Assembly: GCA_021205455.1 (NCBI GenBank)
Contig: JAJPXL010000067.1
Span: forward strand, 1 to 42,429
DNA: 42,429 nucleotides
Direction: 5' to 3'
Source: Clostridiales bacterium
Lineage (GTDB): Bacteria; Bacillota; Clostridia; Oscillospirales; Oscillospiraceae
Shown: piece by piece, positions 17,647 to 37,879 of the stretch
Position numbering within the stretch: the first letter of the stretch is position 1
Layout: each line of letters starts with the position of its first letter
Program-made: the position numbers and the translations under genes
Notes under the pieces: generated by a model
What the model was told of the DNA's origin: nothing
Database searches by the model: none
The model's input: only the letters and a program-made list of their open reading frames with translations

Positions 17647-18492
17647 TTACCGCGTGATATAAGAGAAGCTGTCGCCGGACTGCACATAGGAGATAGGAAG
17701 GTCACTCCCAATCACCTGGGGCAGCCATTTCGCCATACACTTCATGCCGAGCTCCTCCACGTTGAAGTGCCCCATTTCCAGAATCGCCTTGGGATACCCC
17801 GCATAGCAGGCGTCCCGGACATAGGCGCTCATGGTCCAGTCCACGATTTCAAACGGAATCATGACGTCTGCCCGCTCATTCCGGATGCGCTTCATCGCCT
17901 CGTTGTCCGGCACGGTACCGTCATTTTTCCATCCCCGGCTGGCCTGCACATGCTCACAGAAAAAGACGCGCTTTACCGTGGCGTTCTGATCCCCTACAAC
18001 GCGGATGCCGGTCAGGTTCAGCTTCTCCATCAGCTCCGCAGCCAGGGCTTTCACGTTGGTTTCCGGAATCTCATACATCAGCGGCTTCTTTGTGCTGCCT
18101 ATCACATAGTCCTTCCAGCCCAGCTCGCTCATGATGCCATAAAAAATGCCATCTGCAGAGCCTGCGTCGACGTTGCCGTGAATATGGTCATGGTCCCGCC
18201 AGATGACGATGCCATGCTCCTCCAGCAGCCGATGCTTTGCCTCATAGACCGGGTCTCCGGCCAGCCATTGGGTATCGTCCTCATGGTTATAAAAGACCGG
18301 TTCATGGCAGATGATAAAGTTTGCAGCGAGGTCGATCGCCTTCTGAATGACCTCCATGGAGGCAAAACAGGTTACAACAATGCCGGTACACTCCTGGTTG
18401 GCGTCACCGGCCTTGACGGTGTCGCAGGTGTGGGGGTTCCCGATTTCCGGATGAAATGCGATGAGCTTGTCGATAATCTCCTGAATTTTCAT
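17647..18492 (-). CDS. NIF3-family (DUF34) dinuclear metal-centre protein
   Basis: The 281-residue protein shows the family motifs: FIICHEPVFYNHEDD near residues 58-72, DHDHIHGN in the middle and GHFNVEELGMKCMAKW near the C-terminus. Their histidines and glutamate form the two-metal site. NIF3/YqfO proteins are toroidal hexamers, some linked to GTP cyclohydrolase-like or metal-related roles; the reaction here is unknown. It is about as long as the single-domain bacterial form. AAAGGAG precedes the ATG. As last gene of the accessory cluster, it may be a hydrolase co-opted for that pathway. Confidence 0.88.
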   Translation of the reverse strand: MKIQEIIDKLIAFHPEIGNPHTCDTVKAGDANQECTGIVVTCFASMEVIQKAIDLAANFIICHEPVFYNHEDDTQWLAGDPVYEAKHRLLEEHGIVIWRDHDHIHGNVDAGSADGIFYGIMSELGWKDYVIGSTKKPLMYEIPETNVKALAAELMEKLNLTGIRVVGDQNATVKRVFFCEHVQASRGWKNDGTVPDNEAMKRIRNERADVMIPFEIVDWTMSAYVRDACYAGYPKAILEMGHFNVEELGMKCMAKWLPQVIGSDLPISYVQSGDSFSYITR

Positions 18493-18560
18493 AACGTAGC
18501 TCCTTTCCTGTCATATGTTCATGCGTGCTCTTTTCCGGGATGTCATTCTCTCTGCAAGGG

Positions 18561-20015
18561 TTACAGGGGGAAGCCGTCCAGCGAGGTCATCATCCCGGGC
18601 GTATGCTGCACAAAGGTCAGCACCTTGTTCTCGTCCTCGTCGAGGACGATGTTCTCCGCCTGTATGCCGCCATCTGTGAAGTGCAGCGCCACAGGCGTAT
18701 CCTTTGTATAGGCCGGCCAATCCTGCAAGCCGTCCCCATTTGGATTCCCGCGCCTGGCAAAATTGGCCCAATAGCGCGTCATGCACCAGGATGCCGCATA
18801 GTCCGCCTCGGCATACCCGCCTCTGGCGTCCAGCGTGCCAAAGACGTAGGCAATTTCCGAGCTGTGGGGCGTTTTCCCGCCAAAATGCGAGGCGCGGGTG
18901 GGCTGCCCGGGCCTCACCGGCTGCGTGCGTTCAAAATAATAGGCATAGAACGGCGCTTTGCGGTTCCAGGTCGCCTGTAAGCGTCCCCACGCCTGATGGG
19001 GAGAGATGGCGAAGCCCCGATAATAGGACTCGTTGCCCACCTTCAAAAGCTCCGGCAGCCCCTTTCGGCTGAACATCCAGGAGTCTCCGGAGACGGTGCC
19101 GCAGATGATGGGCACATCCGCGTACTGCTGGTTGTGAATGGCGACACCGGGGGCCTCCTTCAGCACAACGCCGTCCAGGAACGGCTGGAAGAATCCCACC
19201 TCTTTCCCGGCCAGCAGCGTTTGGGCCGCTTCGGACAGCGCCTCTGAAAGCTCCAAAGCGTCCCGCGTCATCAGGTCCTGCACCGTCCAGCCCAGCTGCG
19301 CCAGAATCGCATCGCACATCTGCTGGAACTCCTCCTTGGGGCGCATCAGGTCGGCCTCGTTCAACCCGCCGCCGGATTGGATGATGGCCTTCTGGAACAG
19401 CCCCCGGGATAGGGGGCTCGTCAGATGGATTCGGGTGGAGATTCCTCCTGCGGACTGGCCGAAAATAGTCACGTTCTGACTGTTGCCGCCAAAGGCGCCG
19501 ATGTTCTCCTGCACCCAGCGCAGCGCGGCGATCTGATCTAAAATGCCAACATTTCCCGCGCACCCGCACTGCCGCTCCAGCGCCCGGCTGGAGAAGAAAC
19601 CCAGCGGCCCGCACCGGTAGTTGATGGTGACCAGGATAACGCCCTGCTCGTTCAGCGCAGCGCCATCAAACTCCGGCTCGGCGCTGCTGCCCGACTGAAA
19701 GCCGCCGCCAAAAATCCACACCATCACAGGGAGGCGCTCTGCGCTGCTGGCGGCGGGGGTGAACACATTCAGATACAGGCAGTCCTCTGAAAGCTCCGCC
19801 TCGTAGGACAGCCGCTTCGCGTTCTGGATGCAGGCGGGCGGGGCCTCCAGGCACGGGCGCTCTCCCTGCCATGGGTCGACGGGCTGCGGCGCCCGGAAGC
19901 GGAGCGCGCCGACGGGCGGCTTTGCAAAGGGGATCCCCCAAAACACCGTCTGCTGCGGGCTGACCGGAGCCCCGACCACGGTTCCGCACGTTGTTTTCGC
20001 TTTTATCATTGCCAT
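18561..20015 (-). CDS. Type-B carboxylesterase (alpha/beta hydrolase)
   Basis: The 484-residue enzyme belongs to the carboxylesterase/para-nitrobenzyl esterase family. SEDCLYLNVF is at about residues 76-85 and the oxyanion region IFGGGFQSGS at about 101-110. The nucleophile S188 sits in FGQSAGG, the acid is probably D311 (GTVSGDS) and the histidine H384 in HSSEIAYVFG. There is no signal peptide, so it is cytoplasmic and would act on imported esters. AAAGGAGC precedes the ATG. It lies 133 nt after the ferredoxin gene, with a hairpin between, and 68 nt before the NIF3 gene. Confidence 0.92.
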   Translation of the reverse strand: MAMIKAKTTCGTVVGAPVSPQQTVFWGIPFAKPPVGALRFRAPQPVDPWQGERPCLEAPPACIQNAKRLSYEAELSEDCLYLNVFTPAASSAERLPVMVWIFGGGFQSGSSAEPEFDGAALNEQGVILVTINYRCGPLGFFSSRALERQCGCAGNVGILDQIAALRWVQENIGAFGGNSQNVTIFGQSAGGISTRIHLTSPLSRGLFQKAIIQSGGGLNEADLMRPKEEFQQMCDAILAQLGWTVQDLMTRDALELSEALSEAAQTLLAGKEVGFFQPFLDGVVLKEAPGVAIHNQQYADVPIICGTVSGDSWMFSRKGLPELLKVGNESYYRGFAISPHQAWGRLQATWNRKAPFYAYYFERTQPVRPGQPTRASHFGGKTPHSSEIAYVFGTLDARGGYAEADYAASWCMTRYWANFARRGNPNGDGLQDWPAYTKDTPVALHFTDGGIQAENIVLDEDENKVLTFVQHTPGMMTSLDGFPL

Positions 20016-20056
20016 TGGAAACGCTCCTTTCTTCTTTTCACAGAGAAGCAGGGCAA

Positions 20057-20105
20057 AGCAGCGGAACCCTCACTTCAAATTGAGGTGCGGTTCCGCTGCT
20101 TTTTG
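20057..20105. terminator. Hairpin between ferredoxin and carboxylesterase genes
   Basis: A perfect 12-bp stem (20057-20068 and 20089-20100) has a further small stem in its loop. The T-run is on the plus strand (20099-20104), while the minus side has only TTT. On the minus transcript it may act as a partial terminator or RNA-stability hairpin inside the operon. Confidence 0.6.
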
Positions 20106-20148
20106 ATCATCGTTCAGGAACGCTGCGGGCTGCCCCGGTTCGCTCCCC

Positions 20149-20451
20149 TTACGGCAGCTTCCCCCGGGTCACCTCGGTCAGCACCCCCGGCTCTGTCACC
20201 ACCACGCGGTTCATGGGCGCTGTGCCCGCACCCCGGAAGGCGGTAATGGCGTAGGCGTACATATCGTTGCTGATGCCCAGCGCCCGGCCCTGGCAGTTCA
20301 GGTAGCACTGGCCGCAGCTCTGGCAGTTCTCCGGATAGGCCATCACCGACTTGTGGGCCACCGGGTCGAAGTAGAACACGTCCAGCGGGCAGATGTTCAC
20401 GCAGTTTTCACAGCCGATGCACTTGTTCAAATCCACTCTGATGACGCTCAT
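20149..20451 (-). CDS. 2[4Fe-4S] ferredoxin, electron-transfer partner of the FAD protein
   Basis: The 100-residue protein has two complete clusters: C11-x2-C14-x2-C17-x3-C21P and C43-x2-C46-x2-C49-x3-C53. A 45-residue C-terminal extension follows. Its ATG overlaps the end of the flavoprotein gene by 4 nt, so the two are almost certainly subunits of one enzyme. The pair resembles AprBA or ferredoxin-linked fumarate-reductase-like pairs in layout, but no sulfur-reduction genes are near. Confidence 0.93.
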   Translation of the reverse strand: MSVIRVDLNKCIGCENCVNICPLDVFYFDPVAHKSVMAYPENCQSCGQCYLNCQGRALGISNDMYAYAITAFRGAGTAPMNRVVVTEPGVLTEVTRGKLP

Positions 20452-22310
20452 GCTCTCCCTCCTTTTCCGCCTTTGCCGCCCCAGCGGGACGCGGGCGCTT
20501 CAAAGCCCTTTGCCTCCGGCTCGCCGGGGAAGTAGTACACATACCGCTTCTCGTAGGGCTGCTGCAAATCGCCGGCCCATTCCTCCGGTACCGGCACCTT
20601 CTCCGTGGTGAGGGAGCCGTCCGGCTCCTTCCGCTGGGTCAGGAAGCACAGGAAGTGCGCATCATCCCGGTAGGGATAATCCGTCCGATAGGTGTTGCCC
20701 CGGCTCTCCTGCCGGGCCAGACCGGCGCGGAGCTTCAGCTCGGCGCTCTGCACCTTATGTTTCACCTCGATGCACAGCCGCAGGTCGTGGCTGGTGCAGG
20801 CCGACAGGCGGGGAACGACGTGTTCCTTCATGTACAGCACCTGGACTAGCGCCGCCTGCAGGGTGGCCTCGCTCTTGGCCACGCTGACCCAGTAGGGGGC
20901 CATGGTGGCGTGGAGCACGTCTCTGGCCCAGTTGGGGTCAAAGCCCTTCTCCATCCGCAGGGGAGCGGTGATCTCCTCCGTTTTGGCCGCCACCGTCTCC
21001 GGGGAGAGGGTGCGGGACGGAACCCCGGCAGCGTAGGCGGCAGCCGCCTTGCCCGCGTGGTCGCCGTCGATGGAGCAGAAGCAGGAGGTGAAGCCCACCC
21101 CGCAGGGATAGGCCGCGCCGGAAGGGGAGGTGGCGTGGATGCCGTCCCCTGCCACATAGAGGCCGGGGACGCCGGTAGCGCAGTCCCGCTCCCGCAGTCC
21201 GCAGAAGACGCCGGAGGTCAGGTGGCAGCACATACCGGTGGCCGCACCGGCCAGGCCGCTCTCCGCCACAGGGGTGCTCATCTTGCCGGAGCGAACCTCC
21301 TCCGGGTCGCTGCCGTAGGTCTGGGAGCCGCCCCGACGGGTGAAGGCCGCCGTGGCCACGTCCTGGGTCTCCGAGCCGTCGGTCTTGGGGACACCGTTCA
21401 CCGCCTTGCGCACACGCCCCAGCACCATGGCGTTGCCCTTGGTGCCTGCGTAGCTGTCGATGTTCCCAGGCACCACGTCGCCGCCGCAGAGCCAGATGTT
21501 CTCCAGATACTGCCAGTGGTTGTCCAGGAAGACGTTGCCGGGGGCGGTGCTGGAGGTGCCGTGGAAGTCCTCAAACTCCTTGCCTGCGATGGGCAAGCCC
21601 AGCTCGTAGGCCATGTACTCCCCGTCGAAGGTGTCCCCGCCGGTGGGATAGCCGGTGGGCTTGTAGCTGCCGCCGCCTGTGGCCAGCACCACCGCTTTCG
21701 CGCTAACCGCGATGACCTGGCCGCTGGGCACATGGAAGCCCATGACCCCGCTGACCCTGCCGTCCTCCGTCAGGGTGTCCGTCACCATGGTGTGCTCCAG
21801 CACGGGGATCTCGTAGCGGTTCAGCACCTCCATCCACTTCTTGTGGCGGTCAAACCGGTCAAAGGTTTCCCGGTAGCCCACAAAGTCCTCCTGCCGGTAG
21901 AACTCCCCGGCCTCGGAGGCCTTGGGGTACTGGGCCAGGATGCCCCAGTCCGACAGGCGGTGATAAATGCCCTTGGACTCCTGAATCCAGCACTCGTACC
22001 AGCTCAGGTTGCTGAGGTAGTCGCCTCCCACCATCATGGCCTGGCGGAAGGACTCCTCATCGTCGCCCCGCTCCGGGTCGAACCAGCGGAAGCTGCTGGG
22101 CCAGGGGGACAGGCCGGAGTAGCCAGGCCGCCCCTTGTCAATGACGAGGACGCTTTGCCCCTGCTCCTTCGCGGACACCGCCGCGTTCAGCCCGGCAAAG
22201 CCGCAGCCCACCACGACCACATCCGCGCTGTAGGCCGCGTCATAGGGGCAGGCCACCGCCTGAGGGCGGGGCAGCTCCATGGTGCGGGGAGCGGTTACAG
22301 ATTGGCTCAT
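20448..22310 (-). CDS. FAD-dependent reductase flavoprotein subunit (fumarate/adenylylsulfate reductase superfamily)
   Basis: The 620-residue protein has the FAD-binding VVVVGCGFAGLNAA at about residues 31-44. It also has an internal ATGGGSYKPTGYPTGGDTFDG block and a late GVPGLYVAGDGIHATSPSG typical of this superfamily. A C-terminal helical region follows, and the protein ends in a Gly/Lys-rich tail GGKGGKGGRA. With the ferredoxin it should reduce (or oxidise) an organic substrate using low-potential electrons. The substrate is not evident from sequence. No signal peptide is visible. GAAAGGAG precedes the ATG. Confidence 0.9.
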   Translation of the reverse strand: MSQSVTAPRTMELPRPQAVACPYDAAYSADVVVVGCGFAGLNAAVSAKEQGQSVLVIDKGRPGYSGLSPWPSSFRWFDPERGDDEESFRQAMMVGGDYLSNLSWYECWIQESKGIYHRLSDWGILAQYPKASEAGEFYRQEDFVGYRETFDRFDRHKKWMEVLNRYEIPVLEHTMVTDTLTEDGRVSGVMGFHVPSGQVIAVSAKAVVLATGGGSYKPTGYPTGGDTFDGEYMAYELGLPIAGKEFEDFHGTSSTAPGNVFLDNHWQYLENIWLCGGDVVPGNIDSYAGTKGNAMVLGRVRKAVNGVPKTDGSETQDVATAAFTRRGGSQTYGSDPEEVRSGKMSTPVAESGLAGAATGMCCHLTSGVFCGLRERDCATGVPGLYVAGDGIHATSPSGAAYPCGVGFTSCFCSIDGDHAGKAAAAYAAGVPSRTLSPETVAAKTEEITAPLRMEKGFDPNWARDVLHATMAPYWVSVAKSEATLQAALVQVLYMKEHVVPRLSACTSHDLRLCIEVKHKVQSAELKLRAGLARQESRGNTYRTDYPYRDDAHFLCFLTQRKEPDGSLTTEKVPVPEEWAGDLQQPYEKRYVYYFPGEPEAKGFEAPASRWGGKGGKGGRA

Positions 22311-22326
22311 TTCCTTTTCACTCCTT

Positions 22327-24831
22327 TCAAAACAGCTCGCTGTAGCGGGCGTGGGTGGTCACGGCCTGGGTCAGCTGGGGCACCTTCTCCTGGGCGCCGA
22401 TGACCACGGTCCCCTCCAGGGAGCCGCCGAAGAACCAGTAAGTCTCGTGTCGGTTCCGGAGGCTGTCAGACACCTCCACCGTCTGGTAGGGAACGTCCGG
22501 CTTCTTCCCCGGGTCGCCGATGGCGAAAAGGGTGGTGCCGAACCCTTCCAGGCTCAGCCCCAGCAGCTGGTTGGCGTAGGTCAGCTTTTCCCCGGCGGCG
22601 TTGGCGCCCGCCACGGTGCCCTGGCCGGAGGCCTCCGCCCACAGCTGATAGTTCATGCCGTCAAACTGGGCGCAGTCGCCGCAGGCGTACACGTCCGCCG
22701 CGCTGGTCTCCATCCGCTGGTTGACCACGATGGAGCGCTCCACGGCGATGCCCGCCGCCTTGGCCGCCTGGACGTTGCCCCGGTTGCCGCAGGAGACGAT
22801 GACGAAGTCCGCCGGGAACACCCGGCCGTCCCCCAGCCGCACGGCGGTGGCGCGCTCTTCGCCCTCTACGGCGGCGATGGACACGCCCTCATAGCAGGCG
22901 ACCCCCATGGCCGCCATCTGCTCCCGCAGGAGGGCGGCGGATTTGGCGTCCGCCTGACGGCCGATGATCTGGGGAGACGCCTCCAGCACCGTCACCTTCA
23001 GGCCGGAGCGCAGCAGCTCGCTGGCCGCTTCCAGCCCCAGCACGCCGCCGCCGATGACCACCGCCTGGGTGGCGTTTTGCATCAGCCCGGCCAGGGCGGC
23101 GCTGTCCGCCAGGTGCCGAATGGTCAGCACCCCAGGCTTCTGCCAGCCCTCGAAGGGCGGGATAAAGCACTCCGCACCGGTGGCGATCACCAGCTTGTCA
23201 TAGGGGATGCAGTCCCTGTCGGCGGTGGTGACGGTCTTTTCCGCCGTGTCCATGGCGGTGACGGTGCAGCCCAGGCGCAGGTCGATGGCCCGCTCCTGAT
23301 ACCATTCCAATGGATGGATGGCGAGTTGCTCCGGCGCTTCCGCCGCGGTTTGAATGTCCTTGGTCAGCATGGGCCGGTTGATAGGCAGCCCCGGCTCTGC
23401 GGAGAGCATCAGCACGCTGCCCGTCTCATCCCGGCGGCGGATGGCCTCCGCCGCTGAGACAGCGGCCACGCCGCCGCCCACGATGACGTAGCGGCGGTCG
23501 GTGTCCTGGTGGAACAGGGCGTCGTCCTCCTCCACGGGGACGCATTGCTCCAGCCCCACGCCGCACACCGGGCAGGCCCCCAGGGAGGCGTCAAAGATCT
23601 CGCCGCAGACCAGGCACTTCACCAGGGTCGGCTTCCGGGGGTTGGGTACCCGCAGCACGCTGCACCCCACGCCGAAGCCGTAGTCCAGGGCGTGCTTGTT
23701 GTCCTGCTCTGTGGGCTGACCCTGGACGAAGAAATCCTGCAGCGTCAGGGTGAAGCCCAGGTCGGTCAGCCGCTGGCGGAAGTCCTCCACCAGTTCGCCG
23801 GCCGCCGCCCGGTAGAACACCGAGGCCAGCTTGCCCTTGCAGTCCTCCTTCAGCAGGGAGGTGGCCACGTCCCACAGAGCCTTGTCCGCGTTGCCCCAGG
23901 CGCCGTCCACCCCGAACAGGATAGCATCCGCCGTGGGCAGAGCGGCCAGCACCTCGTCCCTGCTCTCGGCACTCAGGTCGTAGCAGGTGACTGCGCCGAT
24001 GCCCGCTTCCGTCAGACCCTGCCGCACCTGGGCGGCCAGGCCGGACAGCAGCTCGCTCCCGGCGTACACGATGGCCACGTTGGGATGGGACATCGCCGTT
24101 CCTTCCTCCGTGTAGAGGGCGGTCAGCCGCTCCAGGCCGCAGTCCGCCACCGGCCCCAGGGCGGGGCAGATGCGCTGGATGTCATGGGTCCGGAGGAGGG
24201 CCACGGCCTGGGCCAGGCTGTCCTTCCGCTTGCGGCCCAGGAGGTCAGCGTAATACCGCTTCGCCCCCCGGAAATAGTCCGTCGGGTCGGGCAGCTCACT
24301 GAGCAGCGGCCGCTCCCCTGTATAGTCCGAGCCAAAGGCGTCCGCCGTGAACAGGGTTTTGCCGGCCTTGTCCACAACGTAGAGGGAGGCGGTAGCGAAC
24401 TTCTCCGGCACCACCTGGAACAGCAGCTCCCGCTCCCCCAGGCGGAGGGTGCGGCTGGTGCGGATCTCAATGCTTTGGAATCCGGCAGGGAGCCCCTGCC
24501 GCAGCCGGAACAGCGTGCCGGTTCCGGCAATGAGGGTCAGGTCGGGGCACTGTTCCAGCAGCAGCTTTGCCCCGGCGAGTTCATCTTCCCCGCCGAAGAT
24601 CACTGCCCATTTGACTCCGTCCGGTGGCGTCACTGACCGGATGTTTTCCAGCCACTGACGGTGGTGCCGCCGGGGGACGGTGCCCAGCAGCAGGTATCCC
24701 GCCCCTGTGTCCAGCAGGTAGGAGCCGTACAGCAGCCCCTGCTCCGTAAAGGAGACCTGCCGGAACACCCGCAGGGACGGGTCTGAGACGCCAATATGCC
24801 ATAGCGTCTGCGTTTGGTCAATCCGTTCCAT
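22327..24831 (-). CDS. Fusion: degenerate flavodiiron module, rubredoxin, NADH:rubredoxin-type reductase
   Basis: The 834 residues divide into a metallo-beta-lactamase-like region (1-245), a flavodoxin-like region (250-395), a rubredoxin domain with C406, C409, C420, C423, and an FAD/NAD(P)H reductase domain (446-834; VIVGGGVAAVSAAEA and VVIGGGVLGLEAA). The layout matches fused flavodiiron NO/O2 reductases. However, the diiron motif HxExDH is replaced by G80-G-E-D-E-L, the later GQH by GSD and the last SHGP by ALGP. The FMN phosphate loop is also unlike the norm. The rubredoxin and reductase halves look intact. It probably supplies electrons to partner enzymes rather than reducing O2 itself. 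Confidence 0.85.
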   Translation of the reverse strand: MERIDQTQTLWHIGVSDPSLRVFRQVSFTEQGLLYGSYLLDTGAGYLLLGTVPRRHHRQWLENIRSVTPPDGVKWAVIFGGEDELAGAKLLLEQCPDLTLIAGTGTLFRLRQGLPAGFQSIEIRTSRTLRLGERELLFQVVPEKFATASLYVVDKAGKTLFTADAFGSDYTGERPLLSELPDPTDYFRGAKRYYADLLGRKRKDSLAQAVALLRTHDIQRICPALGPVADCGLERLTALYTEEGTAMSHPNVAIVYAGSELLSGLAAQVRQGLTEAGIGAVTCYDLSAESRDEVLAALPTADAILFGVDGAWGNADKALWDVATSLLKEDCKGKLASVFYRAAAGELVEDFRQRLTDLGFTLTLQDFFVQGQPTEQDNKHALDYGFGVGCSVLRVPNPRKPTLVKCLVCGEIFDASLGACPVCGVGLEQCVPVEEDDALFHQDTDRRYVIVGGGVAAVSAAEAIRRRDETGSVLMLSAEPGLPINRPMLTKDIQTAAEAPEQLAIHPLEWYQERAIDLRLGCTVTAMDTAEKTVTTADRDCIPYDKLVIATGAECFIPPFEGWQKPGVLTIRHLADSAALAGLMQNATQAVVIGGGVLGLEAASELLRSGLKVTVLEASPQIIGRQADAKSAALLREQMAAMGVACYEGVSIAAVEGEERATAVRLGDGRVFPADFVIVSCGNRGNVQAAKAAGIAVERSIVVNQRMETSAADVYACGDCAQFDGMNYQLWAEASGQGTVAGANAAGEKLTYANQLLGLSLEGFGTTLFAIGDPGKKPDVPYQTVEVSDSLRNRHETYWFFGGSLEGTVVIGAQEKVPQLTQAVTTHARYSELF

Positions 24832-24854
24832 GGAACTTCCCCTCTCTGGTTTTC

Positions 24855-25715
24855 CTATAAGGTGTTCGCGTCATACACCAGCAGGACGCTGCCGCACCGA
24901 TGCTCCATCATGCGCTTTGTGGCGGCGGCTTTCCGCTTGGCGAAGTGGCTGACGCTGGCCACATCCTGCTCTGTCTTGCCGTCCAGCACCTCGGTGCAGG
25001 CCCGGAGCATATCCCTGGGGATGTCGTGGGACACGGGGTCGTTGCCGTGGCCCCAGTACAGCAGAGTGTCCTCCCGGATGGCGTCCATAAAGCGGGCCAG
25101 CCCGTCCCGGTAGGCGGTGAGGCCCACCCGCTTCTCCGGCGGAAGGGTCACCAGCGCGGTGCGGGTGCTGAAGGCGTCGCTGACCAGGGCGTAGTTGTTC
25201 GCCCGATTCAGCAGGGCGATGGAGCCCTGGGTGTGGCCGGGGATGGCGTACACCTCCAGCGTCCGGTCGCCCAGGTCCACAGTGTCGCCCTGGTCGATGT
25301 CCCTGTAGTTTAACCGGTCGGTCATCACAATATGCGTCTCGCAGTAGGCCTTCAGCTCCGGGTCGGCGTTCTCCAGGTGTCCGAACACATCGTCCATCCG
25401 CCGCTCGTAGGACAGCGCCACCGGCAGCAGCCCCTCGTCCCGGCGGTTCATGTAGACCTCGTCAAACAGGGCGGCGGCGCCCGCATGGTCGGGGTGGCCG
25501 TGGCCAACGACACAGACGATGGGCTTGTCCGTGATGCCTGCCACGAAGGCGGGCAGGGTGTCCGTCACGCCGAAGCCGGTGTCAAACAGCAGTGCCCGCT
25601 CCTCCCCCACCACGACGTACATATTGACGCCGGGGGCGTTCTCGGCGGGCCGCTCCGTGATGCGGTACACGCCGGGCAGCAGGTTTTCGCTTTCATATAC
25701 TTGAAACATCGCCAT
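24855..25715 (-). CDS. Metallo-beta-lactamase-fold hydrolase, first copy
   Basis: The 286-residue protein has the full metal-binding set: VVGHGHPDHAG (HxHxDH), IPGHTQGSIALL, LVSDAF and a final WGHGND. It lacks a signal peptide. The family includes thioesterases, lactonases, phosphodiesterases and other hydrolases, so the substrate is open. The ATG shares a base with the stop codon of the second MBL gene upstream. The two MBL proteins are only distantly similar, so they are not a recent duplication. Confidence 0.9.
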   Translation of the reverse strand: MAMFQVYESENLLPGVYRITERPAENAPGVNMYVVVGEERALLFDTGFGVTDTLPAFVAGITDKPIVCVVGHGHPDHAGAAALFDEVYMNRRDEGLLPVALSYERRMDDVFGHLENADPELKAYCETHIVMTDRLNYRDIDQGDTVDLGDRTLEVYAIPGHTQGSIALLNRANNYALVSDAFSTRTALVTLPPEKRVGLTAYRDGLARFMDAIREDTLLYWGHGNDPVSHDIPRDMLRACTEVLDGKTEQDVASVSHFAKRKAAATKRMMEHRCGSVLLVYDANTL

Positions 25716-26647: not shown

Positions 26648-26651
26648 CCCC

Positions 26652-29237: not shown

Positions 29238-29268
29238 ACTGCGCTTCCTTTCTTCTGAGTTGTTTTCA

Positions 29269-29303
29269 TCGCATCGTGATTCCTGTTCCATCCGTCGATG
29301 CGA
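29269..29303. other. Hairpin upstream of the ceramidase-like gene
   Basis: An 8-bp perfect stem TCGCATCG/CGATGCGA (29269-29276, 29296-29303) lies in the 94-nt gap between the ATPase stop and the ceramidase-like start. There is no T-run. It could be a processing or stability site separating transporter and enzyme messages; no promoter is obvious beside it. Confidence 0.4.
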
Positions 29304-29331
29304 GTGTCCTGTACCTCGTTCCAAACCGGAC

Positions 29332-30324: not shown

Positions 30325-31433
30325 ACTGCCGCCTCCTTTCGATTTGCCGCTCTGACCGCTTCCAGGTTATGGCACTGGCAGCGATGGGTGCCGCCCAGCT
30401 CCACCACCGGTACGGGGCCTTCCTTGCAGCATTCTGTGGCGTAGGGGCAGCGGGTGTGGAACTTGCAGCCCGCAGGCAGATCGGACGGCTCCGGCATGAT
30501 GCCGTCAATGGGCTTCAGACGGGTGCTTTCGCTGTTGATGTCAGGCAGGGCGCCGAACAGGCCGATGGTGTACGGATGGGAGGGGTTTTTGAACACTTCC
30601 CGCTTGGAGCCGTACTCCACGATTTCGCCGCCGTACAGCACCGCCACATAGTCGCAGGTCTCGGCCACGATGCCCAGGTTGTGGGTAATCAGCAGCATGG
30701 CGGTGTTGCGCTCCCGAATCAGCTCGGTCATCATATCCAGCACCTGGGCCTGGATGGTCACGTCCAGGGCGGTGGTGGGCTCGTCCGCCAGCAGCAGCTC
30801 CGGATTGCAGGAGAGGCCGATGGCGACCACAACACGCTGCTGCTGTCCGCCGGAGAACTGGTGGGGATAATCCCGCACACGGTCAGGGGTGATGCCCACG
30901 GTTTTCAGCATTTCGATGGCGCGGTCCTCCGCCTCACGCTTGGATAGCTCCGGATTGTGCAGCCGGATGACGGCGGAGACCTGGGTCAGGATGCGCTTTA
31001 CCGGGTTCAGGGCGGTCATGGGGTCCTGGAACACCATGGAGATCTTATTGCCCCGAATGTGCTCCATCTCCTTCTCCGGTATGGTGGCCAGGTCCTTCCC
31101 TTCAAACAGCATTTCGCCGGAGCTGATGCGTGCGCCGCGGTCCGGCAGGATGCCCAGGACGGCCTTTGCAATGGTGGATTTTCCGCAGCCGGACTCGCCC
31201 ACCAGCGCCAGAGATTCGCCGCGCTTGATTTCAAAGGACACGTTGTTCACCGCGTGGGTGATCTTTTTGCCGGCGGTATACTCCACGGAGAGGTTGCTCA
31301 CTTTCAGCAAATCTTCGCCGCGGACATGGTGCCCGGCGTTGTCATGGGCACCCTCCGGATGATGCGGATGATAGTTCTTGTCATGAGGGCCGTGTCTTCC
31401 GCCCTTCTCATGAGAAAATCGTTCTTCCTTCAA
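30321..31433 (-). CDS. ABC transporter ATPase (OppD/DppD-like) with His-rich N-terminal extension
   Basis: Walker A is G79-T87, the signature is QFSGGQQQRVVVAIGL and Walker B is LLLADEPTTALD. The C-terminal domain has CKFHTRCPYATECC. The first 40 residues are an extra His-rich segment with nine histidines (H8 to H36). The start is a TTG at 31433 with GGGGAGG and an 8-nt spacer; no in-frame ATG exists before the ATPase core, so the extension is real if the gene is translated. Such segments often bind Ni or Zn, which suggests a metal or metal-chelate substrate, or metal sensing. Confidence 0.93.
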   Translation of the reverse strand: MKEERFSHEKGGRHGPHDKNYHPHHPEGAHDNAGHHVRGEDLLKVSNLSVEYTAGKKITHAVNNVSFEIKRGESLALVGESGCGKSTIAKAVLGILPDRGARISSGEMLFEGKDLATIPEKEMEHIRGNKISMVFQDPMTALNPVKRILTQVSAVIRLHNPELSKREAEDRAIEMLKTVGITPDRVRDYPHQFSGGQQQRVVVAIGLSCNPELLLADEPTTALDVTIQAQVLDMMTELIRERNTAMLLITHNLGIVAETCDYVAVLYGGEIVEYGSKREVFKNPSHPYTIGLFGALPDINSESTRLKPIDGIMPEPSDLPAGCKFHTRCPYATECCKEGPVPVVELGGTHRCQCHNLEAVRAANRKEAAV

Positions 31434-31448
31434 CTTTAAGTCCTCCCC

Positions 31449-32348
31449 TCATTCCTTGAGTCTCGGGTCCATGGCGTCCCGCAGGCCGTCGCCGAAGAAG
31501 CTGATCGACATCACCGTCAGGGCGATAAAGATCATGGGTGCGAACAGCATATTGGGATAGTAACGCAGGAAGCTGCGCCCGTCGTTCAGCATGGCACCCC
31601 ATTCCGGCATAGGCGGCTGAATGCCCAAACCCAGGAAGCTCAGGCCAGCTGCGCCCATGATGGTGCCGCCGATGCCCATGCAGGCCTGGACGATGATGGG
31701 CTGGATGGAGTTCGGTATGACGTACTTCATAATGATGCGCGCCTCGGAGACATTGGTGGCCTTGGCGGCCTCCACATACTCCTGATTTCGCACAGTCAAA
31801 ATCTGTCCACGCAGCATACGGGCGGTGCCCCAGATGCCGCCAAAGGACATGGCGAGGACGGTGTTGAACAGGCCGGTGCCCAGCACGCTGGCAATGCAGA
31901 TGGTCAGCAGGATGCCGGGGATGCACTGCAAAATGTCAATGAAACGCATGATGACGGAGTCCACCTTGCCGCCGAAGTAACCGGCGATGGAGCCGACGAT
32001 GATGCCCAGAACGGTGCTGACGATAGAGGAAGCCACGCCCAGGGTCAGGCTCCACCGTCCGCCGTAAATCACACGGCTGAAGATGTCGCGGCCATATTGG
32101 TCGGTGCCGAACAGATGCTCCAGGCTGGGGGACAGGTACTTGTTGGACATATCCATGGCCTGATAGTCATAGGGGGCAATCAGGGGCGCGAAGATGGCGG
32201 TCAGACAAATCAGCAGAAAGACGATGCCGCCAAACAGCGCCAGCTTGTTCTTCGCCAGCCGCTTCAAAAATTCCCGGAAGGAGGACTGCTTCTTGACGGA
32301 TTCTTCCTGAACAGTGCCCTGAACGGTTGCGTTCGTATCGGTACTCAT
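31449..32348 (-). CDS. ABC transporter permease (DppC/NikC-like)
   Basis: The 299-residue membrane protein starts with a polar N-terminus, then a hydrophobic LALFGGIVFLLICLTAIF segment and about five more. It has the family's SLEHLFGTDQYGRDIFSRV motif and the EAA loop (EAAKATNVSEARIIMKYVIPN). It forms the pore with the permease at 32345-33331, which it overlaps by 4 nt. Confidence 0.95.
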   Translation of the reverse strand: MSTDTNATVQGTVQEESVKKQSSFREFLKRLAKNKLALFGGIVFLLICLTAIFAPLIAPYDYQAMDMSNKYLSPSLEHLFGTDQYGRDIFSRVIYGGRWSLTLGVASSIVSTVLGIIVGSIAGYFGGKVDSVIMRFIDILQCIPGILLTICIASVLGTGLFNTVLAMSFGGIWGTARMLRGQILTVRNQEYVEAAKATNVSEARIIMKYVIPNSIQPIIVQACMGIGGTIMGAAGLSFLGLGIQPPMPEWGAMLNDGRSFLRYYPNMLFAPMIFIALTVMSISFFGDGLRDAMDPRLKE

Positions 32349-33331
32349 GCCTCTGCACTCTCCTTTCTTCCATGTCTTCTGTGGTGACGCCTGCTGCCCT
32401 CTTCATACTGTGCCCGGATGCGGGGGTCCACCGCCGCATAAACCAGGTCGATGCCCAGCATAACCAGGCAGAATAGAATGGACAGGAACACGACGCAGCC
32501 CAGCACCGCCGGGGTGTCCCGCTTGGAGATGCTGCCCTGGACGTACAGGCCCAGGCCGGGGATGGAGAAGATGGTCTCCAGAATCAGGGTGCCGCCCAGA
32601 CCGGCCGCGAACTGGGTACCCAGGATGGTGATAATGGGAATCAGCGCGTTGGGCAGAGCGTGGCGGAAATAGACGCTGTTGCGGGAGAAGCCCTGGGCCC
32701 TGGCGCTGGTCACATAGTCCGAACGGATGACCTCCAGCATACTGGAGCGCATTTGTCGGGCAATGCCGGAAAAGCCTCCTATCATAATGGATACGCATGG
32801 CAATATGTACGATCGGATGCCCTCTGTGGTGCCATAGGCTGGCAGCCAGCCCAGGTTCAGGGCAAAGACCACGATAAGGAACAGTGCAATGCAGAAGTTG
32901 GGGATGCAGCTCAGCACGCTGGAGAGGACCAGGACGATTTTATCTGCAATACCGTCCTGATGGACCGCGGCCATAACGCCCAGGGGGATGCCAATCAACG
33001 CGCCCACCAGCACGCTGAACACGCAGATGGTGGCAGTATAGGGCATTCGGTTTGCAAGCTCGGTGGTGATGTTGGTGCGATACACCCAGGACTCGCCCAG
33101 GTCAAGCTTGATGAACAGCTGATAGAGGTAGTTGCCGAGCTGAACGATATAGGGCTGGTCAATGCCCAGATATTCCCGATAGGCGTCCAGCTCCTCAGTG
33201 GAAGCGGAGCTGCCCAGGATCATAACAGCAGGGTCGCCCGGTGTGAAGTACAACAGGGTAAAGACTAGAATCACTACCGCGATAATGATCGGGATTGTGA
33301 TCAGCAGCCTTCGTATGACATATCTTACCAT
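32345..33331 (-). CDS. ABC transporter permease (DppB/NikB-like)
   Basis: The 328-residue protein has six predicted membrane segments, beginning VIRRLLITIPIIIAVVI. It has the DppB-type FTPGDPAVMILG near residues 30-41 and the EAA loop TSARAQGFSRNSVYFRHALP. I chose ATG 33331, preceded by AAAGGAGC; a longer frame adds 16 residues without support. A hairpin (33361-33393) lies between it and the binding-protein gene. Confidence 0.95.
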   Translation of the reverse strand: MVRYVIRRLLITIPIIIAVVILVFTLLYFTPGDPAVMILGSSASTEELDAYREYLGIDQPYIVQLGNYLYQLFIKLDLGESWVYRTNITTELANRMPYTATICVFSVLVGALIGIPLGVMAAVHQDGIADKIVLVLSSVLSCIPNFCIALFLIVVFALNLGWLPAYGTTEGIRSYILPCVSIMIGGFSGIARQMRSSMLEVIRSDYVTSARAQGFSRNSVYFRHALPNALIPIITILGTQFAAGLGGTLILETIFSIPGLGLYVQGSISKRDTPAVLGCVVFLSILFCLVMLGIDLVYAAVDPRIRAQYEEGSRRHHRRHGRKESAEA

Positions 33332-33360
33332 GAAGAAATCGCTCCTTTCTCCTTTTTGGG

Positions 33361-33393
33361 AGAAGGGGCAGTGCCTCACGCGCTGCCCCTTCT
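33361..33393. terminator. Hairpin between binding-protein and permease genes
   Basis: An 11-bp perfect stem AGAAGGGGCAG/CTGCCCCTTCT lies about 30 nt upstream of the permease ATG. The minus side has no T-run. Such hairpins after binding-protein genes often stabilise the upstream message so that the lipoprotein is made in excess. Confidence 0.55.
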
Positions 33394-33443
33394 TTTCGTC
33401 ATCACGATATGCGCACGCCCGTCGGAATCAGGCGCATCGTTAT

Positions 33444-35168
33444 TTAGTCGTTAAAGGTAGAGGCGTTGGGCATCAGCGCGTACTTGGTGCCCTGCGCTGC
33501 GTTGACGTCGCTGCGCACTGCGGTCTGGTTGTCATAAACGCAGAGGGCGTAGGCATAGCAGTTGTCATAGGTGAAGTACTGATCCCAGGCTTCCGCGTTG
33601 GCTTCGGAGGGATCGGCCACGATAGCGTTGTACAGGTCGTCCAGGGTGGTGTCCGCAATGAGCATAAGCTGTTCGCCGTTGTCCAGATGGTTGGCTGCAT
33701 CCTCGGTGGTGAAGGTCTTCAGCACCTGGCTCATGTAGCTGCCGCCGCCGAAGGTCTCCAGACGGAGATCCCACTTCGTAGAGTCGTACCTCTCGGTCTC
33801 CAGAACGCTCTCCTCCAGGCAGTTCAGCTCAACATTGATGCCGACAGCAGCCAGCTGGGACTGCATGATCAGGGCGGCGCCGTCGTTGGCGGTGGTGCTG
33901 CTGTAGCTCAGGGTCAGAGTCTCGCCGTTATAACCGGACTCCTCCAGCAGCTCAGTGACCTTGTCCAAATCATAGTCGTAGTAATCGCGGCCGGAGCTCC
34001 AATCATCGGGTGCGTCATAGAGCCGAGCCTGGAAGCCGGTGACGGCGGTGGCAGGGACGGCCAGGCCATCCGCGATGGCTTCATTGTCCAGCGCGTAGCA
34101 AATCGCCTGACGGAGCGCAAGGTCGGCGCAGGGGGAATCGTCGCTGCAGTTGAATATAAAGGCGACAGGTGCGGTCTGGGGCAGGGAGACGGTGGAAATG
34201 TCGTCATTGCCCTCAAAGGCGTCGATGTCGGCAATGTCCAGGGAGTCCGCCATGTCAATGGTGCCCATTTCCAGGGCGATGGCGCGGCTGGAGGAGTCCT
34301 GAATGATCTGATACTCGATCTCGCCGACGTTCTGTGCGCAGTAGACCCACAGGTCAGCCTGCTCTTCCTCGCTGAGGTCCTTCATCCAGAAGTCCTCATT
34401 GGCCTTCAGGATAACGGTGCTGCCGGCGGTGTAGCTCTCTACTACATAGGGACCGGTGCCCACAGGGTCCGTGGTCATGTCACGGGATTCATAGGCTTCC
34501 TGGCTGACGATGTAGCAGTTGGTCAGGTTCTTGACCATGTCACCGTCGCCGAATTCCTCGGAGCAGTACCAGGTCAGGGTGTAATCGTCCACGACCTCCA
34601 GGTGATCCAGACGGTTGATGGCGCCGGTGTTGCCCAGGCTGATGAAGTACTCAAAGCTGTAGACAATGTCGCTGGCGGTAATATGGTTGCCCAGGCTGTC
34701 ATACACGTCGTCATGGATGGTCAGGGTGTAGGTCAGGTCGTCCACCTGCTCGAAGCTCTCGCCGATGGCCCACCGCAGGTTGCCCTCGGTATCCTCATAG
34801 GCCAGCTTCTGGTAGACCAGGTCCAACAGCGCGACGCCGCTGCCCCACTGGGATCTGGTGAAGGCGTCCAGCGTGCCGCCGTCAGAGGAAAGGCTGACGG
34901 TGATTTTGTCCCGCAGATAGTTGCCGTCCAGCACGATGGTATCGCCGTCGGCGTTGGCGCTGGAACCGCTGTCCTCTCCGGTCTCTTCCGCTTCGGCCTC
35001 GGCGCTTCCGGAGGCTTCTTCTGCTTCGCTCTCCGTTGCAGAGCCGGCGCTGTCACCGGAGTCAGAGGTGCCGCTGGAAGAGCTGCTGCTTCCGCTGCCG
35101 CAGGCACTCAGCAAGCCGAGGCACATAGCCATGGCAAGGATGAGCGAGAGTAGCTTTTTCGTTTTCAT
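33444..35168 (-). CDS. Solute-binding lipoprotein of the peptide/nickel ABC transporter (family 5)
   Basis: The 574-residue protein has a lipoprotein signal with LLSAC at about residues 19-23. A long Ser/Gly/Glu/Ala linker (to about residue 85) precedes the SBP_bac_5 domain, which includes VTELLEESGYNGETLTLSY. It binds the imported solute outside the membrane. The ATG at 35168 has AAGGAG with 9 nt spacing. The ligand cannot be read from sequence. It is the first gene of the operon behind the promoter at 35260-35288. Confidence 0.93.
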   Translation of the reverse strand: MKTKKLLSLILAMAMCLGLLSACGSGSSSSSSGTSDSGDSAGSATESEAEEASGSAEAEAEETGEDSGSSANADGDTIVLDGNYLRDKITVSLSSDGGTLDAFTRSQWGSGVALLDLVYQKLAYEDTEGNLRWAIGESFEQVDDLTYTLTIHDDVYDSLGNHITASDIVYSFEYFISLGNTGAINRLDHLEVVDDYTLTWYCSEEFGDGDMVKNLTNCYIVSQEAYESRDMTTDPVGTGPYVVESYTAGSTVILKANEDFWMKDLSEEEQADLWVYCAQNVGEIEYQIIQDSSSRAIALEMGTIDMADSLDIADIDAFEGNDDISTVSLPQTAPVAFIFNCSDDSPCADLALRQAICYALDNEAIADGLAVPATAVTGFQARLYDAPDDWSSGRDYYDYDLDKVTELLEESGYNGETLTLSYSSTTANDGAALIMQSQLAAVGINVELNCLEESVLETERYDSTKWDLRLETFGGGSYMSQVLKTFTTEDAANHLDNGEQLMLIADTTLDDLYNAIVADPSEANAEAWDQYFTYDNCYAYALCVYDNQTAVRSDVNAAQGTKYALMPNASTFND

Positions 35169-35259
35169 GTTTGTGGTCTCCTTTTTCATTTTAGATTTGG
35201 GCTGCGCCCTTTTTTCCGCCGCCTGGCCGCCCTGTCGGGCTGCTCAGGTGCATAGTTGC

Positions 35260-35288: not shown

Positions 35289-35318
35289 CTTTGAAAAAGG
35301 GTATTTGCCTCGAAAAAC

Positions 35319-35602: not shown

Positions 35603-35659
35603 AATTTTCAAGGCGGCTCACGCCTGCCATTTTCCCACGCCTGATTGGAAGGTGAAACT

Positions 35660-37879
35660 ATGATACAGAAAACGCATCGCTTCCGCGCAGCCCTCTCAGG
35701 GAGACGAGGGATCCATCGCGAGATCAGATCCTATTTTATGCTTCTGGTTCTGCCGCTGGTGCTGTGTATTGCGCTTTTTATCGGCATCCGCACGGTCATG
35801 CAGCAGCTGATGGAAGAAAATATGAGTCAATTGATGGAGCGGTTTCAGTCAGAGATCGAGGCAGAGCGGTGTGAAACCCTGCTGCTGACGGACGCCCTGG
35901 CGGAGACGGATCTGTTCCTGCGGGTGCAAAACGGCGAGGCGCTTTCCACCGTGGATGGGGACGCCTTCGTGCAGCTGCTCTCCGACTATACCGACATGGG
36001 CAATGGGACGAGGATCGAGCACCTCTACCTGGTCAGCACCCTCTCCGACCAAATCTATTCCGACACGGGCCGCTTTACCACGGCCTCCCTGTCTGCCATC
36101 CTGTCAAAGGTCAGCATCACCCAGGAGGACCTGGACGCCGCAGTGGACGCGCAGCGCATTCAATGGCACCTGCTGACCCAGACCGGATTTGCGCCCTGCT
36201 GCGTCATCCCGCTTTCAACGGAAGGCGGGGACAGCTCCGGCGTTCTGATCGTCACGCTGAACATGACGAACTTTCTTGAGGTGTTCACCCGCCTGGACGC
36301 TTCCTTCTGCGCCATGTTCAATGAGGACTGCTATATAACATCCCTGCTGACCAATATTCCCTCCGGGTTTGACTGGTACAGCGAGGAGGCGGTCAGCGAG
36401 CTGGTAGGGTTTCGCGTCTCCTGCGCCTACCTGGAGGGGGAGTCCTTTACCTACCTGGTGGCGCTGCCTCAGGCAGTGTACTACCGTCCCCTGCAAATAA
36501 TCGTCATCGGCTTTTGCACCTACGCCGTGCTGTTCCTGGTGGGTGGCTACTGCTATTTATACCACGTGTCCAAGCAGCGGTATCAGCAGATTTCCACCTT
36601 AATCGACGCCCTGCCCCAGCGCCCGCCGGAGGATGCGTCCTACGTTGGCATTATGCAGCACGTCCAAACCGCTTTGCTGGACCTCCGGAATCAAAATGAG
36701 GATCAAAAGCGCATCAAGCAGGGGGAGCTGCTCCATAATCTGCTGTACGGCCACTATGGCTCCGACCTGCCGGAGCCGCTGCTCAAGTCCCTGTGCGCCA
36801 ACGGCGCGGAGCGCTACTATGTAGTCTCCTTTTATGTACAGGACATCTCCAACCTGACCCTGGAATCCGCCAAAAAGCCGGACACATTGGCGCTGCTCAG
36901 CGTGCTCTTCCAATCCACAATGGAGGGGTTATCTAAGCCGGACGTTTCTGTCCTCTCTTACGGCGATTTTGAAAGCCACACCGCCGTTTTCTGCGCCGCG
37001 CTGCCCCATGAAGCATTCAAGGGGCGGGTCATTGAGATCTGCAATAACACCGCCGCCCTCCTGTATCAAAGCTACGGCATCACCGTTCACGCTATGGTCA
37101 GCAGTATGGCCTGCGGGGTGTCCTCCCTGCCGAACGCCTTCCAGGAGACGCAGAAGCTGAACCGCTTTGCCCACTCCATTGACAGCACATCGCCCCTGGT
37201 AGCCCAGGAGGATTTGTTCGGCGTCAGCGGGAATCTGCTCAGCGGGGACTTCTTCAAGCAGGAGCAGGTCCTCATCAATACGCTGCTCTCCGGTAAATTT
37301 GAAGCCGTTCCCTCCATGGTGAACGTGATTTTGGAGGAGCACGTCGCCCCGCTGCGGAAGAACTACGATATAGTCCACAACCGCCTGCAAACCATCGCCA
37401 ATCTCCTGGCAGAAGGGTTGATTGCGGCACACATCCCCGGTATTGACGCGGTGGCGGCCTCGAACCGCCTTCAGGGGGCAGACTCCATTGCCGCACTGAA
37501 GGAGGTCACGCAAATTGTATTCCAGCAGGCCGCTGAACTGGCCGCCAACAGCTCCGAGGAGGATGGAATCATCGCCCGGGCCCTGGATTATATCCAAGCT
37601 CATGTTGGAGACCGAAACCTGGATGTGACGGCAGTCTGTGAACACGCAGGCGTCGGCGTAAAGCGGCTGACCCGAATGTTCCAACGGAAATTTGATATGA
37701 GCGTGGCGGATTACATGAATCGCTGCCGCATCACCGCCGCGAAAGAGCTGCTGAAAAATCCCAAGCTGACCGTGGCCCAGGTGGCCGACCGGGTTGGTTA
37801 TAACAGCTCGGACACCCTGGCGCGGAACTTCCGCAAATTCGAGGGCGTCACGCCCACGGAATATCGGAAGCTGCTGTGA
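35660..37879 (+). CDS. Membrane-anchored AraC-family transcriptional regulator
   Basis: The 739-residue protein has a membrane segment near residues 24-45 (YFMLLVLPLVLCIALFIG). An extracellular sensor region of about 230 residues follows, then a second membrane segment (about 283-302, IIVIGFCTYAVLFLVGGY). A cytoplasmic linker leads to two C-terminal helix-turn-helices (about 640-735; ending GVTPTEYRKLL). This layout is typical of regulators sensing extracellular sugars or other solutes beside a transporter. The ATG at 35660 follows GGAAGGTG. Its divergent position to the binding-protein gene suggests it activates that operon. Confidence 0.93.
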   Translation: MIQKTHRFRAALSGRRGIHREIRSYFMLLVLPLVLCIALFIGIRTVMQQLMEENMSQLMERFQSEIEAERCETLLLTDALAETDLFLRVQNGEALSTVDGDAFVQLLSDYTDMGNGTRIEHLYLVSTLSDQIYSDTGRFTTASLSAILSKVSITQEDLDAAVDAQRIQWHLLTQTGFAPCCVIPLSTEGGDSSGVLIVTLNMTNFLEVFTRLDASFCAMFNEDCYITSLLTNIPSGFDWYSEEAVSELVGFRVSCAYLEGESFTYLVALPQAVYYRPLQIIVIGFCTYAVLFLVGGYCYLYHVSKQRYQQISTLIDALPQRPPEDASYVGIMQHVQTALLDLRNQNEDQKRIKQGELLHNLLYGHYGSDLPEPLLKSLCANGAERYYVVSFYVQDISNLTLESAKKPDTLALLSVLFQSTMEGLSKPDVSVLSYGDFESHTAVFCAALPHEAFKGRVIEICNNTAALLYQSYGITVHAMVSSMACGVSSLPNAFQETQKLNRFAHSIDSTSPLVAQEDLFGVSGNLLSGDFFKQEQVLINTLLSGKFEAVPSMVNVILEEHVAPLRKNYDIVHNRLQTIANLLAEGLIAAHIPGIDAVAASNRLQGADSIAALKEVTQIVFQQAAELAANSSEEDGIIARALDYIQAHVGDRNLDVTAVCEHAGVGVKRLTRMFQRKFDMSVADYMNRCRITAAKELLKNPKLTVAQVADRVGYNSSDTLARNFRKFEGVTPTEYRKLL

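Follow-up and report, generated by a model that had tools for sequence, protein, structure and literature searches.

A degenerate class F flavodiiron protein beside a flavoprotein–ferredoxin pair in an import and hydrolysis gene cluster of a Clostridiales bacterium

Class F flavodiiron proteins, such as CD1623 of C. difficile and FDPF of T. vaginalis, combine four domains in one chain: a metallo-beta-lactamase (MBL) domain, a flavodoxin domain, a short rubredoxin with two CxxC motifs, and an NADH:rubredoxin oxidoreductase domain. The C. difficile protein is described as a stand-alone NADH:O2 oxidoreductase (PMC6033852), and a class F homologue is reported for T. vaginalis (PMC9364112). Seven di-iron ligands (His83, Glu85, Asp87, His88, His149, Asp168, and His229) are strictly conserved across the class, as are the rubredoxin ligands (PMC6033852). 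The isolated rubredoxin–reductase half of the C. difficile protein is stable and folded, with potentials of −250 mV for its flavin adenine dinucleotide (FAD) and −130 mV for its rubredoxin; the range given for the C. difficile class F rubredoxin is −110 to −130 mV (PMC6033852). In that paper, the function of the rubredoxin is left open and redox partners yet to be identified are suggested. Here, we describe a locus in which a protein of this architecture, named FDPfus, has lost most of its di-iron ligands and is encoded in a run of import and hydrolysis genes, next to a flavoprotein (FADp) and a ferredoxin (Fdx). The locus lies in the assembly GCA_021205455.1 of a Clostridiales bacterium (G000 in our numbering; 2.67 Mb, 175 contigs), in contig JAJPXL010000067.1 (C13), which was analysed as one stretch of 42,429 nucleotides, called the window below.

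FDPfus has the four domains in the class F order within one chain and aligns over its full length with five intact class F relatives, to which it is 35–38% identical. Domain matches cover residues 8–386 (PRK11921), 405–426 (RUBY_RBDX-like; weak, E = 0.0058), and 447–738 (Pyr_redox_2). Among the NCBIfam families, flavorubredoxin matches the first 386 residues (E = 3.8e-18); the matches to the last ~390 residues are NADH-dependent rubredoxin/ferredoxin reductases. No match to the canonical rubredoxin family PF00301 was found in the genome, as expected with a short rubredoxin. A preliminary description of the window had named the gene at 22327 a rubredoxin–NADH reductase fusion; both parts are indeed present, but the first ~390 residues match flavodiiron cores, and the whole protein is a degenerate member of class F.

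The di-iron ligands were compared in an alignment of FDPfus, five further copies borne by such clusters (L030, L031, L037, L038, and L056), ten class F relatives not borne by such clusters (L039–L043 and L100–L104), and a second flavodiiron protein of the same genome, encoded on contig C35. FDPfus keeps two of the seven ligands (Glu85 and Asp168), and all four histidines are replaced. Two ligands are also left in L030, L031, L037, and L038, and one in L056; none of the four ligand histidines is retained in any of the six cluster-borne copies. In contrast, all seven ligands are present in each of the ten relatives from outside, and the C35 protein also has 7/7. The regions SAYGYT, PTIIGEA, and GSYGWSGEG, which we take to be the binding loops of flavodoxin for flavin mononucleotide (FMN), are altered in 6/6 cluster copies. 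FDPfus retains the rubredoxin motifs CLVCG/CPVCG and both GxGxxG-type dinucleotide-binding motifs (FAD/NADH). With neither a di-iron site nor FMN loops left, FDPfus should therefore release its electrons at the rubredoxin, where its internal chain would stop, and would depend on an acceptor outside the protein.

No description of a class F protein that lacks these ligands was found in the open-licence literature searched. The closest solved structure to the FDPfus core is the diflavin protein 6h0c, which we take to be Flv1. The cyanobacterial class C proteins Flv1/Flv2 are described as having, like FDPfus, a flavodiiron core without the canonical di-iron ligands (PMC4390876); unlike FDPfus, they carry a C-terminal flavin reductase and no rubredoxin, and their context is different. 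This likeness, and the NADH:O2 oxidoreductase activity of class F proteins (PMC6033852), would suit a FDPfus that still defends against O2 or NO by means of unusual ligands and has its place in the operon to protect an oxygen-sensitive FADp–Fdx pair. The replacement of all four histidines in every cluster copy, the changed FMN loops, and the presence of another flavodiiron gene with a full set of ligands in the same genome make such a role improbable.

On a FastTree tree, the degenerate copies form one clade with a support of 1.0. The divergent C35 protein attaches beside this clade, which is probably a long-branch effect. The sequences suggest that the ancestor of FDPfus was a class F flavodiiron NADH:O2 oxidoreductase, whose di-iron site and FMN loops were later lost; this descent is part of the whole reading given below and shares its confidence. 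The ratio of non-synonymous to synonymous substitution rates (dN/dS) between FDPfus and L031, L030, and L038 is 0.25–0.28 in the MBL domain, 0.09–0.14 in the flavodoxin domain, 0.06–0.19 in the rubredoxin, and 0.12–0.16 in the reductase; in the intact class F pair L039/L041, it is 0.02–0.06 throughout. Comparisons with L056 are saturated (two values undefined, 0.50 for the MBL domain) and were excluded from the argument. Ratios of 0.09–0.28 in two dead domains indicate, therefore, that the reading frame has been held. Constraint on the dead MBL domain is relaxed but not gone, and on the dead flavodoxin domain it is as strong as on the reductase. Possibly, these domains have a structural role in dimer formation or docking.

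The genes around FDPfus form a run of 13 co-directional genes on the minus strand (17647–35189), divergent from the gene of an AraC-type regulator. The order from 35189 downwards is OppA-OppB-OppC-OppD-OppF, CerEst, MBL2, MBL1, FDPfus, FADp, Fdx, COest, and NIF3 (names as in Table 1). The preliminary description had placed all of the named genes correctly but counted 12 in the run. It had also described them as overlapping or nearly touching, which is true of 9 of the 12 junctions (overlap or gap ≤23 bp; the Fdx–FADp overlap is 4 bp), but wider gaps occur between OppA and OppB (64 bp), between the ferredoxin and carboxylesterase genes (133 bp), and between the carboxylesterase and NIF3 genes (68 bp). 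The gene group is more than a chance run: all or part of it is found again in other genomes. If it were a loose catabolic island, its importer–hydrolase genes and redox genes would serve separate purposes and the dead flavodiiron core would be plain decay. The shuffling of modules between relatives, the weaker constraint on the FDPfus MBL domain, and the 133-bp gap before a carboxylesterase gene that L031 does not have at that place fit such an island; it is made unlikely by the arrangement on one strand with mostly tight junctions, by recurrence across lineages, and by dN/dS well below 1 in every FDPfus domain in three close pairs.

FADp (E ≤ 1e-30) and degenerate FDPfus (E < 1e-200) were found in the same 7 of the 32 genomes of the genus (G000, G002, G004, G017, G018, G028, and G029), which are kin and do not represent seven independent events; among the remaining genomes, some are incomplete. 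FDPfus directly adjoins FADp in the window and in L031, L032, L033, L038, and L056; in G028 and G029, the two genes are at the ends of separate contigs, which end inside or beside them. In L030 (G004), a transposase-like gene, presumably of the IS110 type, separates FDPfus from FADp (10996–12297). Outside the genus, in the L056 locus of a Clostridiales metagenome-assembled genome (MAG), genes for FDPfus (53% identity), FADp (73%), and Fdx (78%) keep this order and follow genes for a ceramidase-like protein and MBL2. Near intact class F genes, neither FADp, Fdx, nor Opp genes were seen (0/5; L039–L043, 5–15 kb each). As a check, the preliminary description had proposed a search for conserved co-occurrence of the flavoprotein, the ferredoxin, and the fusions at 22327 and 26652; of these, the flavoprotein, ferredoxin, and FDPfus, together with the MBL genes, are kept side by side in the genus and in L056. 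Relatives with scattered genes, which that description had named as a refuting case, were sought and were not found as a rule, but modules have been swapped and added between relatives.

Surveys of the class covered 391 sampled genomes with at most 2–3 candidates scored per genome, so that absences in them are soft. FADp at E ≤ 1e-45 was detected in two (the genome studied and G420). The CerEst profile matched six genomes; in the five other than our own, the match was in the esterase part, and only that of G420 lies in a related cluster. Seven genomes matched FDPfus. All five fusions that were checked are intact; L105, with 437 aa and the reductase part only, was not among them. The named relatives are MAGs, including RUG601 and red-deer MAGs; RUG presumably stands for a rumen origin.

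FADp scores 70.1 bits with PF00890 (FAD_binding_2; cut-off 20.4) and 47.2 bits with PF02910 (Succ_DH_flav_C; cut-off 20.8), and its profile matches include succinate dehydrogenase (SDH), aspartate oxidase, and AprA. Among the best 25 of 58 NCBIfam families, it remains below each cut-off, the best score for fumarate reductase (FRD)/SDH being 126.1 bits vs. 587. Like the soluble fumarate-reductase-like flavoproteins of anaerobes and AprAB-type flavoprotein/ferredoxin pairs, FADp has the FAD_binding_2 fold, a C-terminal helical domain, the ESRGxxxRxDYP motif, and a neighbouring 2×[4Fe-4S] ferredoxin; unlike them, it scores far below the NCBIfam cut-offs shown, and it lacks the substrate arginine of FrdA at the aligned place. 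In the profile alignment, from which alone this is judged, the SDH segment hGsnrlgg, whose arginine we take to be the catalytic substrate-binding residue of FrdA, aligns with asGaaypg. Five distant FADp relatives (28–34% identical) each have an adjoining ferredoxin gene and no FDPfus; the FADp–Fdx pair is therefore the older unit. In L047 (G061:C14, 5602–10863), a FADp-like protein and a ferredoxin are encoded next to a candidate glycyl radical enzyme with its activase.

From the gene content, domain identities, motifs kept and lost, co-occurrence, and adjacency, we infer, with a probability of about 50%, that the run is expressed as an operon and acts as a cytoplasmic unit for import, hydrolysis, and reduction fed with NADH electrons via FDPfus. 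The compound imported by OppABCDF would be small, bear an ester or amide group, and be recognised by the AraC-type regulator. Once inside the cell, it would be cleaved by CerEst, MBL1, MBL2, and the carboxylesterase, and FADp would reduce the released part. Electrons would pass from NADH to the FAD of the FDPfus reductase domain, its rubredoxin, the 2×[4Fe-4S] ferredoxin, the FAD of FADp, and the substrate, this being the chain with the fewest extra parts. It is plausible that the remainder of FDPfus is a stand-alone donor, by analogy with the C. difficile rubredoxin–reductase half; with potentials like those of C. difficile, it would be matched to acceptors whose own potential exceeds about −100 mV, for example, activated C=C bonds. 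Uptake, hydrolysis, and reduction had already been proposed in the preliminary description; the conserved cluster and the natural reading of the gene set speak for it, but the fusion is a degenerate class F protein, and the carboxylesterase is an optional member, since it is present at this place in G017 (L032) and absent from it in G018 (L031). Nothing usable was found on a named pathway with this set of parts in the literature searched, most subscription papers being outside the search. The new element is the degenerate class F protein as a putative dedicated electron donor, of which no description was found in the open-licence literature. If the reading is true, an enzyme well known from oxygen defence has become a dedicated source of electrons for biotransformation in an anaerobe, and the class F rubredoxin gains a function. 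Compounds that bear esters would then be the likely targets of this family of clusters in anaerobic Clostridia. Genes may carry the annotation flavodiiron NADH:O2 or NO reductase and yet lack the reactive site. FDPfus, the ferredoxin, and the flavoprotein make up a defined gene set that can be tested in vitro.

The same chain may also be read backwards. If FADp is a dehydrogenase, electrons would flow from the substrate through FADp, ferredoxin, rubredoxin, and the reductase domain to NAD+, and the operon would be an oxidative catabolic unit. The FADp superfamily includes dehydrogenases too, as the matches to SDH and aspartate oxidase indicate, and related clusters contain FMN_dh (L053), GFO/IDH/MocA oxidoreductase (L122), and GH3 genes and, we assume, GH31-like genes as well. 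This direction is rather unlikely: the family to which the reductase belongs is named for oxidising NADH. In addition, at the −110 to −130 mV reported for C. difficile (PMC6033852), NAD+ reduction from rubredoxin would be uphill. Another explanation is metallophore uptake, in which the Opp/Nik-type importer would take up a metal chelate, the hydrolases would open its ester or lactone, and the NADH chain would reduce the metal to release it. Trilactone siderophores are used in this very order of uptake, ester cleavage, and reduction, and NikA and CntA, which binds metallophores, are among the top NCBIfam matches of OppA, none of which reaches its cut-off. A flavoprotein of the FRD type is not a usual ferric reductase, however, and the many different genes that sister clusters hold for esterases, YdjC-type proteins, lactonases, and glycosidases point to organic substrates, which makes metallophore uptake very doubtful.

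Several observations weigh against the NADH-fed import–hydrolysis–reduction unit. Transfer from NADH:rubredoxin oxidoreductase to ferredoxin is uncommon, and the electron flow could run the other way. The dN/dS of the FDPfus MBL domain (0.25–0.28 vs. 0.055 in the intact pair) is that of a vestige. The predicted structure of FADp (predicted local distance difference test score, pLDDT, 39.9) is too poor for use. In the stretches examined, L054 and L060 have the importer and CerEst and no NADH-donor gene, and L060 also has no flavoprotein. The FADp relative of G420 (45%) has no adjoining 2×[4Fe-4S] ferredoxin gene, and FADp/Fdx pairs occur with no visible donor module in L044 and L046–L048. Where genome completeness is 61–80%, absences are weak evidence.

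A scan of the CerEst alignment against 84,980 species genomes gave 15 loci. Relatives within the genus and elsewhere in Clostridia have the Opp importer, ceramidase-fold/esterase, MBL, and flavoprotein/ferredoxin genes grouped together; other lineages keep the importer, ceramidase-fold hydrolase, MBL protein, and flavoprotein. The enlarged cluster of G004 (L058) comprises AraC, OppABCDF, CerEst, NIF3, MBL2, a second flavoprotein–ferredoxin pair, MBL1, two YdjC-type genes, a 508-aa protein, another MBL1, FDPfus, FADp, and Fdx. L062 (Jiella) has ceramidase-like and esterase genes and neither donor nor flavoprotein; L064 and L065 are remote loci. Further ceramidase-like, lactonase, and MBL2 genes were noted at contig ends of the genome studied (L082, C127, 8942–12426; L117, C113), where further clusters of the same kind have probably been cut by the assembly.

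Beside the flavoprotein–ferredoxin pair, FDPfus is replaced by a NuoF-type NADH module in L053, in C97 and C80 of the genome studied, and in G017. The Lachnospiraceae locus L053 contains Opp, MBL, and esterase genes, CerEst, a flavoprotein, and a ferredoxin, followed by NuoF-type and HydA-like genes. C97 (L084) has OppABCDF, MBL2, a flavoprotein, a ferredoxin, and the NuoF-type and HydA-like genes, and C80 (L094) has a second NuoF/HydA-like cluster. The pair also accompanies a flavoprotein and a ferredoxin in G017:C44 (L122) and a flavoprotein in L052. The HydA-like protein resembles HydA1 of bifurcating hydrogenases (7q4v, E = 1e-69). With the bifurcating hydrogenase HydABC, these clusters share the NuoF-type and HydA-like proteins; unlike HydABC, their HydA-like proteins have degraded H-cluster loops, presumably the motifs named L1, L2, and L3. 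The H-cluster cysteines have been lost in steps: the first cysteine of L1 is lost in 5/5 copies, and the L2/L3 cysteines are lost in three of the five (L052, L053, and G017) and retained in C97 and C80. Hydrogenase activity has likely been lost in those three copies. In G420:C22 (L077, 9470–12370), the FADp relative is directly followed by a CoxS-like 2Fe-2S protein and a CoxM–GltD-like fusion (PF00941, PF14691, PF07992, and PF03450); no molybdenum subunit was seen in the stretch examined. This cluster also holds OppABCDF, MBL2 (68%), several esterases, and a lactonase.

A more general design can be proposed tentatively, as one that is possible rather than probable: substrate-specific flavoprotein reductases powered by NAD(P)H-oxidising machines with a dead or missing terminal site, three unrelated machines having been recruited. 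These would be a class F flavodiiron protein that has lost the di-iron site (the locus in the window and L056), a NuoF and HydA-like pair with an H-cluster domain decayed fully (L052, L053, and G017) or partly (C97 and C80), and the CoxS/CoxM–GltD-like module, seen at one locus (G420). One genome would then carry several parallel import–hydrolysis–reduction loci, a toolkit comparable to that for polysaccharide utilisation but directed at small molecules rich in esters.

Table 1. Features of the FDPfus locus in the window.
Feature	Coordinates	Strand	Description	Evidence
AraC	35645..37879	+	AraC-type regulator, 744 aa, hydrophobic segments, C-terminal helix-turn-helix	NCBIfam AraC-family matches, residues ~620–743
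OppA	33444..35189	-	OppA/NikA-type solute-binding lipoprotein	NikA top NCBIfam match, E = 8e-25, below cut-off
OppB	32345..33379	-	OppB-type permease	Sequence; syntenic relatives 43–75%
OppC	31449..32348	-	OppC-type permease	Sequence; syntenic relatives 46–77%
OppD	30321..31433	-	OppD-type ATPase	Sequence; syntenic relatives 54–72%
OppF	29332..30324	-	OppF-type ATPase	Sequence; syntenic relatives 63–82%
CerEst	26652..29237	-	Neutral-ceramidase-fold domain, Gly/Pro-rich linker, EstA/PHB (polyhydroxybutyrate)-depolymerase-like esterase, GQSQG	
MBL2	25715..26647	-	Metallo-beta-lactamase-fold hydrolase, HYHFDH present	PF00753, 52.4 bits (cut-off 22.7)
MBL1	24855..25715	-	Metallo-beta-lactamase-fold hydrolase, HGHPDH present	PF00753, 60.3 bits
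FDPfus	22327..24831	-	MBL–flavodoxin–short rubredoxin–NADH:rubredoxin oxidoreductase, class F flavodiiron architecture	
FADp	20448..22310	-	Flavoprotein of the fumarate reductase/succinate dehydrogenase/adenylylsulfate reductase superfamily	PF00890, PF02910
Fdx	20149..20451	-	Ferredoxin, 100 aa, eight Cys in two CxxCxxCxxxC	Pfam Fer4 matches; sequence
COest	18561..20015	-	Carboxylesterase type B	PF00135, E = 1e-110
NIF3	17647..18492	-	NIF3/DUF34 protein, divergent subfamily	PF01784, 63.8 bits
Terminator-like hairpin	17486..17531	-	20 pairs, T-rich tail	115 bp past NIF3, consensus match only

The listed open reading frame of CerEst extends to a TTG at 29324; the start is probably at 29237, behind the Shine-Dalgarno-like AAAGGAAG, and no signal peptide was seen when the protein was read from there. 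The GxSxG motif of the esterase part is GQSQG, and this part matches 3doh (E = 7e-24), while its score with PF10503 (17.5 bits) is below the 23-bit cut-off. The other part has the ceramidase fold. It differs from neutral ceramidase in its fusion to an EstA-like esterase and in having no Pfam match to PF04734 at E ≤ 0.01; CerEst relatives reach 15.2–15.6 bits against 32.1 with this family. The histidine of the fAIHP motif, presumably a zinc ligand of neutral ceramidase, is replaced by lysine in a short and weak alignment segment. Sphingolipid cleavage is not claimed: the fold fits, but the zinc histidine and the Pfam score both fail. Gly/Pro-rich low-complexity stretches are found in MBL2 and CerEst (25715–29324), and likewise in CerEst of L050, L053, L054, and L060. 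Relatives of MBL2 are present in 8 of the 32 genomes of the genus. The NIF3/DUF34 protein scores 33.8 bits with the YbgI family against a cut-off of 130.55. Sulfoquinovose, tannins, and chlorophyll, considered as substrates, had no evidence behind them and were dropped.

The importer is of the Opp/Nik type, with a binding protein, two permeases, and two ATPases in order, as judged from sequence and syntenic relatives. A lipobox-like LLSACGSG can be read in OppA; as to its substrate class, it scores 87.3 bits with NikA against a cut-off of 393. The AraC-type regulator has a counterpart in the same divergent place in G004 (L058; 36% identity) and L060 (35%). The 455-bp gap between the AraC and OppA genes contains promoter-like sites in both directions. 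Seven promoter-like sites were observed vs. 4.1 in shuffled sequences, and 20 terminator-like sites vs. 13.2, all of these being consensus matches only. Elsewhere on the contig, at 1860–3800, there is a candidate fusion gene for what we take to be an IspH-like protein with S1-type RNA-binding repeats, presumably ordinary in Clostridia.

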